Assembly: GCA_938003855.1 (NCBI GenBank)
Contig: CALKXD010000162.1
Coordinates: 1 to 59,864, forward strand
Reading direction: 5' to 3'
DNA from: an uncultured Granulosicoccaceae bacterium
GTDB lineage: Bacteria > Pseudomonadota > Gammaproteobacteria > Granulosicoccales > Granulosicoccaceae
Length of the DNA stretch: 59,864 bases
The translations under genes were made by a program, and so were the position numbers. Below, piece after piece: positions 11,882-15,622 of the stretch. Under the pieces are notes generated by a model. The model made no database searches and was not told where the DNA came from. It saw only the letters and a program-made list of their open reading frames with translations. Each line of letters begins with the position of its first letter. Position 1 is the stretch's first letter.

Positions 11882-13390
11882 ATGTGCGGGATAATCGGCA
11901 TCGTCGGCCGCGAACCGGTAAATCATCGACTTTACGACGGCTTGTCGCTGCTGCAGCATCGGGGGCAGGATGCAGCCGGCATCGCTACCTGCGAAGACAG
12001 AAAGTTGTTTGTTCGAAAAGCGCCCGGTCTGGTCACCGAGGTGTTTCGCACCGCTCACATGCTGCGGTTGCGCGGCAATATGGGCATCGGGCATCTGCGC
12101 TATCCCACAGCGGGCAGCTCCAAAGTTTCTGCCGAGGCGCAGCCGTTTTACGTCAACTCGCCGTTTGGTATTGTGATGACTCACAACGGCAATCTGACCA
12201 ACGCTGAGGATCTGCAAAGCGAACTCTACCGAACTGATCGCCGTCACATCAACACCAGCTCTGACAGTGAAGTTCTGCTCAACGTGTTTGCGCACGAACT
12301 GCAGCGTGCAGCGCAGTCCGACAAGTTTCATCCGGATATGTTGTTTAAAGCGGTGTCAGCGGTGCACCAGCGCTGCAAAGGCAGCTACGCTGTCATTGCG
12401 ATGCTGGTCGGCAGAGGTGTGCTGGCGTTTCGTGATAAACATGGAATCCGTCCGGCCATTCTGGGCAAGCGTGAGTCGGCTGACGGCACCGAGTACATTG
12501 TTGCCTCTGAGAGTGTTGCGCTCACCGGGCTTGGCTTTGAACCGGTTCGGGATCTGTTGCCCGGTGAAGCAATCTACATCAGCCGCGATGGCACGCTGTA
12601 TCAACAGCAGTGTGCGGTACAGTCGAGTCTGACGCCTTGTATCTTTGAATACGTGTATTTTGCCAGACCCGATTCCGTCATTGACAATGTCTCTGTTTAC
12701 TCGGCACGCTTGAAAATGGGGCGCAAACTGGCCAGTAAAATACGCAATGAGTGGCCGGATCACGATATCGATGTGGTGATTCCGATTCCCGACACAGCGC
12801 GAACCTCGGCGCTGGAGCTGGCGATGGATCTGGGTATTACTTATCGCGAAGGCTTTGTTAAAAACCGCTACATTGGCCGCACGTTTATAATGCCGGGGCA
12901 AACCAAACGCCGCAAGTCGGTGCGACAAAAGCTGAACCCAATCGAGTCAGAGTTTCGCGGCTTGAATGTATTGCTGGTTGACGATTCCATTGTTCGCGGT
13001 ACAACCTCTGAGCAGATCATTCAGATGGCGCGGGAAGTGGGGGCAAACAAGGTCTATATGGCGTCTGCAGCACCACCGGTTGCCTACCCGAACGTTTACG
13101 GCATTGATATGCCGGCCGCCAACGAGTTAATTGCGTTTGAACGCAGCGTCGACGAAATTTGTGCGGAAATCGGTGCCGACGGGCTGATTTATCAGGATCT
13201 CAACGATCTCATCGATGCGGTGCGGGAGATAAACCCGCAGCTGGATGAATTTGAGACCAGTTGCTTCAACGGGCACTACGTCACCGGTGATGTCGACGGA
13301 AAATACCTGAGCTGGCTGGCGGCACGACGCGCTGATGCCAGTCAAACGAGCGTTGCTGACGAGGAGTTTGTCGACGTCGGCGTCGAGTAG
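11882..13390 (+). CDS. purF: Amidophosphoribosyltransferase PurF
   Basis: First committed step of purine synthesis: PRPP plus glutamine gives 5-phosphoribosylamine. The protein has 502 residues, typical. The sequence starts MCGIIGIVG, so removal of Met exposes the N-terminal nucleophile cysteine of the class II glutamine amidotransferase domain. HRGQDAAGI and MTHNGNLTN line that active site. The C-terminal phosphoribosyltransferase domain has the PRPP loop [18 protein letters not shown]. The ribosome site AGG lies close to the ATG. The 3' end overlaps the next gene by one base (TAGTG), a sign of translational coupling. Confidence 0.97.
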
Positions 13391-13923
13391 TGAACACACT
13401 GCAATCGCTTTGGGCAGAGCACGGCAATAATGCATTGGCACCGCTGGTGCTGCTTGTTGAGATTGCCACCCAGCAGATGCGCTGTTTTACTTCGCAACGG
13501 GAGTTTGCCCGGTACCCGGTTTCAACCTCGAAACGAGGCGCGGGCTGTCGCGAAGGATCGTCGTGCACGCCCCTGGGGTGGCACACTGTTGCGCAGAAGA
13601 TCGGCGACAACGCGCCAGCGGGAACAATATTCAGTGGCAGGGTTGCCGGTGAAATTGCCGCGTCGCTGAGTTCTGATAGCGACGACGATCTCATCACCAG
13701 TCGAATACTCTGGCTCGATGGTTTACGGCCCGGCTACAATCGCGGAGGCCAGGTTGATAGTAAATCCCGATATATCTATATCCACGGTACGGCACAGGAG
13801 CACTTGATAGGGTCTGCGGTATCGCACGGGTGTATTCGCATGCGCAATAACGACGTCATTCAGCTGTGTCAGCAGGTCGACGTCGGTGCCGCAGTCTATA
13901 TTAGCCAGACTGCATTGCGCTGA
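13390..13923 (+). CDS. L,D-transpeptidase (YkuD domain) without signal peptide
   Basis: YkuD-fold enzymes crosslink peptidoglycan stems or attach lipoproteins using a cysteine nucleophile. The 177-residue protein has the complete signature: histidine (about H132) in YIHGT and the SHGCIRM block with catalytic C148. The N-terminus shows no hydrophobic export signal, unlike ErfK-type enzymes. Its GTG start overlaps the purF TAG by one base, so translation is probably coupled to purF. Related leaderless YkuD proteins exist in other proteobacteria, but where they act is unclear. It could be exported by another route, or the true start could differ. Catalytic function is likely; substrate unknown. 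Confidence 0.83.
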   Translation: MNTLQSLWAEHGNNALAPLVLLVEIATQQMRCFTSQREFARYPVSTSKRGAGCREGSSCTPLGWHTVAQKIGDNAPAGTIFSGRVAGEIAASLSSDSDDDLITSRILWLDGLRPGYNRGGQVDSKSRYIYIHGTAQEHLIGSAVSHGCIRMRNNDVIQLCQQVDVGAAVYISQTALR

Positions 13924-14197
13924 GAGAATACCGGCTCAGCTGGAGCGGTGTCAGTGGCAAACCCGGCCTGTAACTGGCGATAAGGATCGACGTTGTGTGT
14001 ACCGTTGATCACCTGTCTCAATCGATAAAAATGCTCAGCGATCCTGCGACCTTAAAGACCTTCTGCGCGCCAGTAGTCCGGGGCATGTGCATGGTGCATC
14101 GGGTTTCACAGATGAGGAAAGCCGATAAGGTAATGGCGGTGGCGTTACAGCTTTCAGAGGCGGGCAGCTTTAGTGACCGGTGTTGCTCTGTTGGCTC

Positions 14198-14225
14198 TTG
14201 ACTCTCTATCAACTTGATGCATAAT
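14198..14225 (+). promoter_or_regulatory. Promoter of the metZ leader
   Basis: TTGACT (14198-14203, five of six consensus bases) and CATAAT (14220-14225, five of six) are 16 bases apart, the best promoter match in this part of the window. The start would fall near 14231-14233, exactly where the SAM-II-like aptamer begins. The upstream part of the gap (13924-14197) shows no gene or clear structure. Confidence 0.7.
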
Positions 14226-14230
14226 TCAGT

Positions 14231-14283
14231 CTGCGCCGATTTGATTCAGCTTGCGGGCGCTTGAAAAATACAGCTAAAGCGAG
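14231..14283 (+). promoter_or_regulatory. SAM-II (SAM_alpha) riboswitch aptamer
   Basis: Seen: P1 pairs GCGCC (14233-14237) with GGCGC (14256-14260). The P1 loop starts GATTT (14238-14242). The pseudoknot pairs GCTTGC (14249-14254) with GC-AA-GC in 14273-14280, with one U and one A unpaired. The linker holds TTGAAAAAT (14261-14269), followed by AGCTAAA (14272-14278). Known: SAM-II is an H-type pseudoknot whose conserved blocks are GAUUU, UUGC, GCGC, UGAUAAAU and AGCUAAA, in this order and spacing, and it controls methionine genes such as metZ, metA and metX. Pairing positions differ in sequence from the metX aptamer but stay complementary. Inferred: S-adenosylmethionine binding represses metZ. 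Confidence 0.87.
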
Positions 14284-14329
14284 CTTTAGGCCCGCTGAAC
14301 ACTGTCGGCTATGCCATGGCATACGACAG
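14253..14329 (+). promoter_or_regulatory. Alternative helices of the metZ leader (putative expression platform)
   Basis: Bases 14283-14295 complement two aptamer parts: GCTTTAG (14283-14289) pairs with CTAAAGC (14274-14280), and GCCCGC (14290-14295) pairs with GCGGGC (14253-14258). These would break P1 and the pseudoknot, so the two folds exclude each other. A second strong hairpin follows: CTGTCG (14302-14307) with CGACAG (14324-14329), and TATGC (14310-14314) with GCATA (14319-14323). No T-tract follows either, so simple intrinsic termination is not supported. The metZ ATG lies 100 bases further. Confidence 0.6.
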
Positions 14330-14431
14330 AGGTACTGAGCAATGAGGGATGCCTTATTGCAAATGTAAAGCTGGCTTATCAGCCCTGCAAGCCGTACTCC
14401 CCCGTTATTTTACCTGCAGGTCTCAGCACAG

Positions 14432-15622
14432 ATGAATACCCTCGATTGGTCCGATCACGATTTTGCCACTGCTGCCGTTCGCGCCGGTCATCAACGCAGC
14501 AATGAAGGCGAAAACGCCGAAGCTATTTTTACCACCTCAAGCTTTGTCTTTGACAGCGCAGCTGAGGCTGCAGCGCGCTTTCAGAACAACGCGCCGGGTA
14601 ATGTGTACTCGCGATTCACTAATCCAACCGTGCGTGCGTTTGAGCAACGGCTTGCCGCGCTGGAGGGAGGGGAGTCCTGCATTGCTACCGCCTCTGGTAT
14701 GGCTGCGATCATGTCTACCTGTGTGGCTTTGCTTGCACCGGGCGAGCATGTGGTTGCGTCCAGCGGTTTGTTTGGTTCGACCTCGCAGTTCTTTAAAAAG
14801 TATCTGACCCGCATCGGCAATCCGGTGAGCTTTGCGCAGATTGATAGTATCGATGACTGGGCTGCCAGAATTACCCCGCAAACCCGCATGCTGTTTGTGG
14901 AGACACCTTCCAATCCCCTGACTCAGCTTGCTGATATTACCGCACTGGCAGCGCTGGCCAATGAGAGTAACGCGCTGTTGGTGGTAGACAATTGTTTCTG
15001 CTCGCCGGTCTTGCAGCGACCGCTGGAGCTGGGTGCGCACCTTGTGATTCATTCGGCTACCAAGTTTATTGACGGGCAGGGACGCTGTGTTGGTGGAGCT
15101 GTGGTGGGTGACAAAAAGCGCGTAGGTGAAGATATTCTGGGTTTTCTGCGCACGGCAGGGCCGACCATGAGTCCGTTTAATGCCTGGGTGTTTCTAAAAG
15201 GACTGGAGACGCTAGAGCTTCGAATGCAGCGTCATTGTGAAAGTGCTCTGGAGCTTGCCCGATGGCTGGATCAGCACGATGCAGTGTCGAAGGTGTATTA
15301 CCCGGGGCTGCAAAGCCATCCGCAGCATGCGCTGTGCAGGGAGCAGCAAAGTGGCTTTGGCGGAATCGTCTCTTTCGAGGTAGCGGGTGGCACCCGTGAG
15401 CGCGCCTGGCAGATAATAGACAATACTAAAATGCTCTCAGTGACCGCCAATCTGGGTGATGCTAAGTCGACAATCACTCACCCTGCGACAACGACGCATG
15501 GGCGTCTGACGGATCAGGATCGAGCGGATGCGGGGATAGGGCAAGGGCTGTTGCGGATCGGGGTCGGGCTGGAGTCTGTCGCCGATATCAAGGCTGATCT
15601 TGATCGCGGTTTTAGCGTCTAG
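14432..15622 (+). CDS. metZ: O-succinylhomoserine sulfhydrylase MetZ
   Basis: PLP enzyme that makes homocysteine directly from O-succinylhomoserine and sulfide, the direct-sulfhydrylation route to methionine. The protein has 396 residues. The PLP lysine is K211 in HSATKFIDGQGR. Other Cys/Met-metabolism signatures are YSRFTNPTVRAFEQRLAALEGGE, ETPSNPLTQLADI and the C-terminal ITHPATTTHGRL. Substrate assignment follows from similarity to Pseudomonas MetZ and the purF-metZ order; an O-acetylhomoserine enzyme is the alternative. The ATG has only a weak AGG about 11 bases upstream. A SAM-II riboswitch precedes it, so it should be turned down when SAM is plentiful. Confidence 0.93.
   Translation: MNTLDWSDHDFATAAVRAGHQRSNEGENAEAIFTTSSFVFDSAAEAAARFQNNAPGNVYSRFTNPTVRAFEQRLAALEGGESCIATASGMAAIMSTCVALLAPGEHVVASSGLFGSTSQFFKKYLTRIGNPVSFAQIDSIDDWAARITPQTRMLFVETPSNPLTQLADITALAALANESNALLVVDNCFCSPVLQRPLELGAHLVIHSATKFIDGQGRCVGGAVVGDKKRVGEDILGFLRTAGPTMSPFNAWVFLKGLETLELRMQRHCESALELARWLDQHDAVSKVYYPGLQSHPQHALCREQQSGFGGIVSFEVAGGTRERAWQIIDNTKMLSVTANLGDAKSTITHPATTTHGRLTDQDRADAGIGQGLLRIGVGLESVADIKADLDRGFSV

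Follow-up and report, generated by a model that had tools for sequence, protein, structure and literature searches.

The window, the 59,864-nucleotide contig CALKXD010000162.1 of an uncultured Granulosicoccaceae bacterium, carries an aptamer of the SAM-II type upstream of the methionine-synthesis gene metZ, which both NCBIfam models recognize above their cut-offs (Table 1). Promoter-like boxes lie just before the aptamer, and most of the sister leaders compared carry TTGAC(A/T) and ATAAT boxes in a similar position. A gene of the YkuD L,D-transpeptidase fold is found between purF and metZ (13390-13923; NCBIfam ElsL-like, 146 bits for a cut-off of 270), and a 64-aa ORF at 14311-14505 had no match in Pfam.

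The Rfam model SAM_alpha (RF00521) matches 14223-14298 with 31.8 bits (E 2.4e-5), without reaching its gathering score of 36. The alignment spans model positions 1-79 of 79, and the conserved stretches GATTTGA, TTGC and GCTAAAG are present together with P1, one pair of which is marked as non-standard. Two other members of the genus exceed the gathering score (L002, 40.1 bits; L003, 37.6 bits; leaders are designated here by L numbers and genomes by G numbers). Given the model match, metZ downstream and the promoter-like pair just upstream, we regard the element as an aptamer of the SAM-II type that lies almost at the 5' terminus of the transcript, with SAM as its presumed ligand.

Table 1. Features of the metZ leader, in positions of the window
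Feature	Position	Strand	Basis
Sigma-70-like promoter TTGACT-16-CATAAT	14198..14225	+	Consensus scan 10/12; ends a few bases before P1
SAM-II-type aptamer	14233..14280	+	RF00521 match below gathering score; P1/P2 strands assigned by sequence reading
P1	14233-14237/14256-14260	+	Assigned by sequence reading
Pseudoknot P2 (putative)	14249-14254/14273-14280	+	Complementary strands by reading; almost invariant across genus
Local anti-aptamer strand GCTTTAG + GCCCGC	14283..14295	+	Exact complements, kept in L005
Extended local anti-aptamer arm (GCCCGC, GCTGAA, CA, GTCGGC)	14290..14309	+	Predicted pairing with aptamer 5' half
Distal anti-aptamer strand GCCCTGCAAGC	14382..14392	+	Predicted pairing with 14249-14260 in ligand-free leader
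Anti-SD CCTGCA (predicted)	14384-14389	+	Part of distal strand
Shine-Dalgarno (SD) region TGCAGG	14415..14420	+	Role inferred from position ahead of ATG
metZ, O-succinylhomoserine sulfhydrylase	14432..15622	+	NCBIfam NF006003 655 bits (cut-off 522), TIGR01325 540 bits (cut-off 510)

The aptamer is present in all 14 genomes of the genus, 13 being found through the model and G002 by reading its metZ leader (L135), a leader that also occurs in record JAHDHK010000109.1 (L077). The model matches 15 of the 48 genomes of the family, and the reading of metZ leaders adds, besides G002, two genomes from other genera (G014 and G018); the order contains that single family and its genome set is identical. 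Among the genus leaders compared the aptamer is nearly invariant. SAM-II had earlier been noted in a few gammaproteobacteria, as mentioned in an excerpt of Barrick and Breaker (2007; PMC2258182). Five genomes with metZ homologues (G017, G019, G043, G026 and G020; L137, L139-L142) gave no SAM_alpha match, and an aptamer-like string was read near the gene in L137 only, about 550 bases before it; the switch seems to be lost or replaced there. On the minus strand, 14207-14336 is matched with 36.3 bits (cut-off 70) by the Rfam family RF02424, the predicted Burkholderia sRNA Bp2_287, which likewise matches the antisense strand of the SAM-II leaders L003 and L002. The model of this family may have been built on the complement of a leader of the SAM-II type, although none of the 16 other SAM-II-type loci searched reached its cut-off, which speaks against such an origin.

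The local strand and the nascent leader

A preliminary description of this DNA had proposed that the segment directly after the aptamer, 14283-14295, could dismantle the pseudoknot and form one extended hairpin in the ligand-free state. The complements on which this proposal was built are exact, GCTTTAG (14283-14289) facing CTAAAGC (14274-14280) and GCCCGC (14290-14295) facing GCGGGC (14253-14258). Within 14281-14300, 17 of the 20 bases belong to exact aptamer complements of at least 6 nt, a richness matched by 5 of 5000 dinucleotide shuffles of this segment, and 5 of 2000 leader shuffles contain any 20-base window equally rich. When duplex energy replaces exact matching as the measure, the result is only borderline, with 27 of 500 shuffles doing as well.

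Conservation was compared between the window and L005, a leader of the same genus, the metZ genes of the two being 76% identical in DNA. In the local stretch 14281-14297 the two agree at 16 of 17 columns, in the distal block 14380-14395 at 16 of 16 and immediately ahead of that block at 11 of 13, whereas the stretch between the two strands agrees in 28 of 71 columns, the bases after the distal block in 5 of 17 and the SD region in 4 of 10. Judged from this alignment, both strands look to be under selection. The L005 version of GCTTTAG is without one A, and the GTCGGC part of the extended arm is absent from L005 by reading. Across the genus, the loss of complementarity that had been named as refuting the proposal is partial: eight of the 14 members (L001-L006, L013 and L135) retain GCCCGC, six (L007-L012) have lost it, and GCTTTAG is found in the window only.

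Every fold reported here is a prediction for nested structures at equilibrium, with SAM and the pseudoknot represented only by blocking the aptamer. The segment 14233-14320 folds at -27.6 kcal/mol when free and at -11.0 kcal/mol with the aptamer blocked. When the nascent ligand-free transcript was folded at successive 3' ends in 5-base steps, the GCCCGC helix replaced P1 at most ends from 14295 to 14385 (probability 0.61-0.98), and the GCTTTAG helix was minor, averaging about 0.13-0.19 over the same range. At 3' end 14305 both local helices dip, GCCCGC falling to 0.10 and P1 returning to 0.87. An alternative ligand-free fold using the P1/P2 strand GCGGGC is predicted, as had been proposed, and the part of the proposal that joined both helices into one extended hairpin is not the best fold. 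As the main fold this double hairpin was rejected at -16.9 vs. -18.0 kcal/mol (3' end 14296) and -26.3 vs. -27.6 kcal/mol (14320), a narrow 1.1-1.3 kcal/mol; by itself it reaches -14.4 kcal/mol, and -16.9 in the most favorable context. Since it loses by a small margin at 14296, it is therefore a near alternative.

The layout is as unusual as the preliminary description held, being in the window leader neither of the terminator type nor of the type with the aptamer beside the ribosome-binding site (RBS). No terminator-like site occurs on either strand at 13900-14500, none was flagged in the window leader (L001), and the metZ ATG lies 136 bases past 14295. The local hairpin was considered as an intrinsic terminator and ruled out, as no T-tract follows it. 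A loose scan flagged terminators in L005, L008 and L012, which were discounted for weak stems or few T after them.

The same observations bear on another account of the local strand, in which 14283-14309 would be the actual switch, acting on transcription: with SAM, the downstream RNA would be exposed or paused and transcription would end through Rho or a hairpin lacking a U-tract, and without SAM the aptamer would be held open. The complementarity beyond chance, its retention in L005 and the dominance of the local strand in the majority of the nascent folds sampled as far as 14385 all agree with it, as does the frequency of termination with this aptamer type elsewhere. Indeed, a pattern scan of public genomes, with a pattern fixing the P1 and P2 strands, gave at least 119 stretches, and many among the matches listed carry an intrinsic terminator directly past the aptamer; under a strict T-tract filter, 56 terminator leaders remain among the matches listed, and 16 of their hairpins contain an exact complement of at least 7 nt to their own aptamer, where 5.4 were expected. 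On the contrary, the region 13900-14500 holds no terminator-like site, six of the 14 genus members lack GCCCGC, and the link to the ribosome site described below would stay unexplained. We consider a transcriptional switch unlikely.

The distal strand and the ribosome site

The anti-aptamer role given to 14283-14295 would hold early in transcription; in the full leader the aptamer is predicted to be won by a distal strand at 14382-14392 that the preliminary description had overlooked. This strand, GCCCTGCAAGC, is predicted to pair with 14249-14260 (14258 bulged) with a probability of 0.98-1.00 in the full ligand-free leader. Its capture of the aptamer begins at 3' end 14390 (0.73) and stands at 0.98-1.00 from 14395 on. 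In the full ligand-free leader the local strand has an expected 0.01 pairs with AGCTTGCGGGCGCT, the aptamer strand, and about 3 with the remaining aptamer. By itself, the pairing energy of the distal strand does not stand out in the window, where 411 of 500 shuffles do at least as well, but we think the measure uninformative since shuffles of a long stretch also yield long wobble-rich duplexes. The distal strand was assessed instead by constrained folding and by counts of shared bases.

With the aptamer free, the predicted partner of CCTGCA (14384-14389) is 14252-14257; with the aptamer blocked, it is 14415-14420, with a probability of 0.74-0.87. In the window, opening the RBS is predicted to cost 5.3 kcal/mol with the aptamer free and 8.4 kcal/mol with it blocked. 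This rise of 3.1 kcal/mol is modest, with 7 of 200 leader shuffles and 14 of 100 aptamer shuffles as high. The window by itself is insufficient for a claim of RBS control, which is carried by the genus set of 13 leaders, with starts chosen by hand. These leaders are related, so the tests across them are not independent. Blocking makes the RBS costlier to open in every one of the 13; in 10 of them no more than 8 of 200 leader shuffles are as high, in 6 none is, and z averages 2.7 and exceeds 2 in 9. When the aptamer only was shuffled, at most 5 of 100 were as high in 9 of the 13. Taken singly, L005 (45/200 shuffles as high), L008 (72/200) and L011 (24/200) are not significant. Three leaders were tested after the hypothesis had been formed, two going weakly in the right direction (L135, 32/200; L136, 18/200) and one giving nothing (L138, 91/200).

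Control leaders, with automatic starts of which some are possibly wrong, show no such average: in 28 of the 32 eligible terminator-type leaders among the matches listed, the mean z was 0.05 and two had z above 2. For 35 other leaders without strong terminator, also among the matches listed, the mean z was 0.65 and four exceeded 2. In these four (L020, L071, L089 and L114; z 2.1-4.2) the block raises the RBS-opening cost, so control at a distance may have evolved on more than one occasion; the record titles among the first three name Bradyrhizobium iriomotense, an Oceanicaulis sp. and a Gammaproteobacteria MAG.

Over 15 leaders, the bases with both roles, pairing with the free aptamer and, once it is blocked, with the RBS, total 74.3, vs. 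24.9 in shuffles. The window shares 6.1 bases between the two sets, those of CCTGCA (2 of 60 shuffles as high), and the counts are unremarkable in L002, L008, L135 and L136 (matched by 9, 27, 15 and 15 of 60 shuffles). In L004 the count is 0.0, the strand holding the SD differing from the one taking the aptamer.

The switching strand itself varies among the genus leaders. In the window and L005 it is predicted to be the GCCCTGCAAGC block, in L011 it would lie inside ATCGTCGCGC, and in L009 a single strand, CCCCGCTAAGCTC, is predicted to take either the aptamer or the SD. The SD of L004, AGCGGGC, is predicted to pair with the local GCCCGCT and a different strand to take the aptamer. From the folds of L004 and L013, the local strand is thus the predicted anti-SD there, and in the window it would be an early competitor. 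A partial copy of the aptamer strand, GCGG[AG], occurs at most 20 nt from the start in 9 of 13 genus leaders and, among 32 other ORFs of the window (a small sample picked from the ORF list), ahead of 1; the comparison with 4 of 70 other leaders among the matches listed is biased, these 70 having been chosen for an SD of the AGG type. On this reading, most leaders of the genus have an SD region that mimics the aptamer strand.

The missing terminator, the aptamer score under the Rfam cut-off and the great variation of the genus leaders in length and sequence would also suit a degenerate leader, which has lost its terminator and retains the anti-aptamer strands as remnants, SAM control of metZ being gone or exerted through mRNA stability only. 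Such decay fits poorly with an aptamer that is nearly unchanged across the genus leaders compared, with local and distal strands that stand out as conserved blocks where the rest of the leader has diverged, and with an RBS effect present in the genus and on average absent from terminator-type leaders; we hold it to be improbable. It is very improbable that a protein regulator controls the gene and that the SD pairing arises incidentally from sequence that is G+C-rich and resembles the aptamer, because the shuffles preserved dinucleotide content and the control leaders show no average effect, even though several leaders are individually not significant and 14 of 100 shuffled aptamers match the window.

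A possible two-strand relay and known SAM-II systems

The reading that we favor, and regard as moderately probable, is that the metZ leader is a SAM-II riboswitch that works at long range as an OFF switch for translation, with the local strand as an early competitor and the distal strand as both anti-aptamer and anti-SD. Without SAM, the aptamer strand 14249-14260 would first be captured by 14290-14295 during transcription, and later by 14382-14392, leaving the SD freer. With SAM, the aptamer would retain its strand, so that 14384-14389 would fold onto the SD and translation would drop. The complementarities and their retention in L005 are read from the sequence and the two folds are predicted, whereas we infer that SAM is the ligand, which way it controls the gene and what the local strand does kinetically. 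The leader sequences suggest that the sensor controls a distant RBS by swapping strands, replacing the usual transcription terminator. The earlier proposal was accordingly accurate in its observation and half right in its interpretation, the local strand being predicted to act early only and the distal strand and the SD link being added here.

A wider reading is tentative, and we would sooner doubt than assert it: SAM-II in this genus may have been rewired from intrinsic termination to an RBS some 70-210 bases off, the strand having differed in both place and sequence from species to species and the double complementarity having been kept, with a relay of two strands in the window, the first keeping the aptamer open until the polymerase has made the second. 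If true, a tiny aptamer, among the smallest known, would switch its mode of control between lineages by relocation of a strand, itself unchanged. The 14 related natural leaders form a series for testing strand exchange, and the case bears on long-range control of ribosome binding where aptamer and start codon are far apart.

Among the open-licence PMC papers listed, as covered by titles and the beginnings of abstracts, no SAM-II platform of the window type is described, the nearest being that of Scheuer et al., and no open-licence PMC paper combined SAM-II, riboswitch and anti-Shine-Dalgarno. Excerpts of three papers describe a link to termination: SAM-II is mostly associated with terminators in alpha- and betaproteobacteria (Barrick and Breaker, PMC2258182), SAM-dependent termination is predicted for metZ of S. 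meliloti (Scheuer et al., 2022; PMC9373788), and GC-rich regions of the betaproteobacterial metXZ element were speculated to pair with the terminator stem as an antiterminator (Leyn et al., 2014; PMC4239095). Together with the aptamer complements in terminator hairpins, these excerpts indicate that a switch between aptamer and terminator has precedents. Five metXZ-like leaders of the terminator type (L056, L060, L117, L091 and L017) reach the SAM_alpha cut-off, out of 16 loci searched in Rfam, so the metXZ element of Leyn et al. is probably SAM-II itself.

As far as the excerpts go, terminator-type SAM-II riboswitches such as that of Sinorhizobium meliloti metZ (PMC9373788; Corbino, 2005, PMC1273637) have in common with the window the kind of aptamer, metZ, a near promoter and an expected OFF switch. 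They carry an intrinsic terminator after the aptamer, whereas none was found in the window, where the start lies well past the local strand. Similarly, the metXZ element is placed upstream of metX or metZ with a pseudoknot and an alternative fold in the portion of the text considered (PMC4239095), and a terminator follows it, unlike in the window leader. In translational SAM-II riboswitches, namely the compact one of a Sargasso Sea metagenome and that of S. meliloti metA (PMC9373788, in excerpt), SAM would lower the access of the ribosome, as in the window, and the translation start of metA is also far, 74 nt from the SD of the riboswitch. According to the same excerpt, the SD is there sequestered in the pseudoknot, whereas that of the window lies about 135 bases past the aptamer, near the start, and would be reached through the relay strand.
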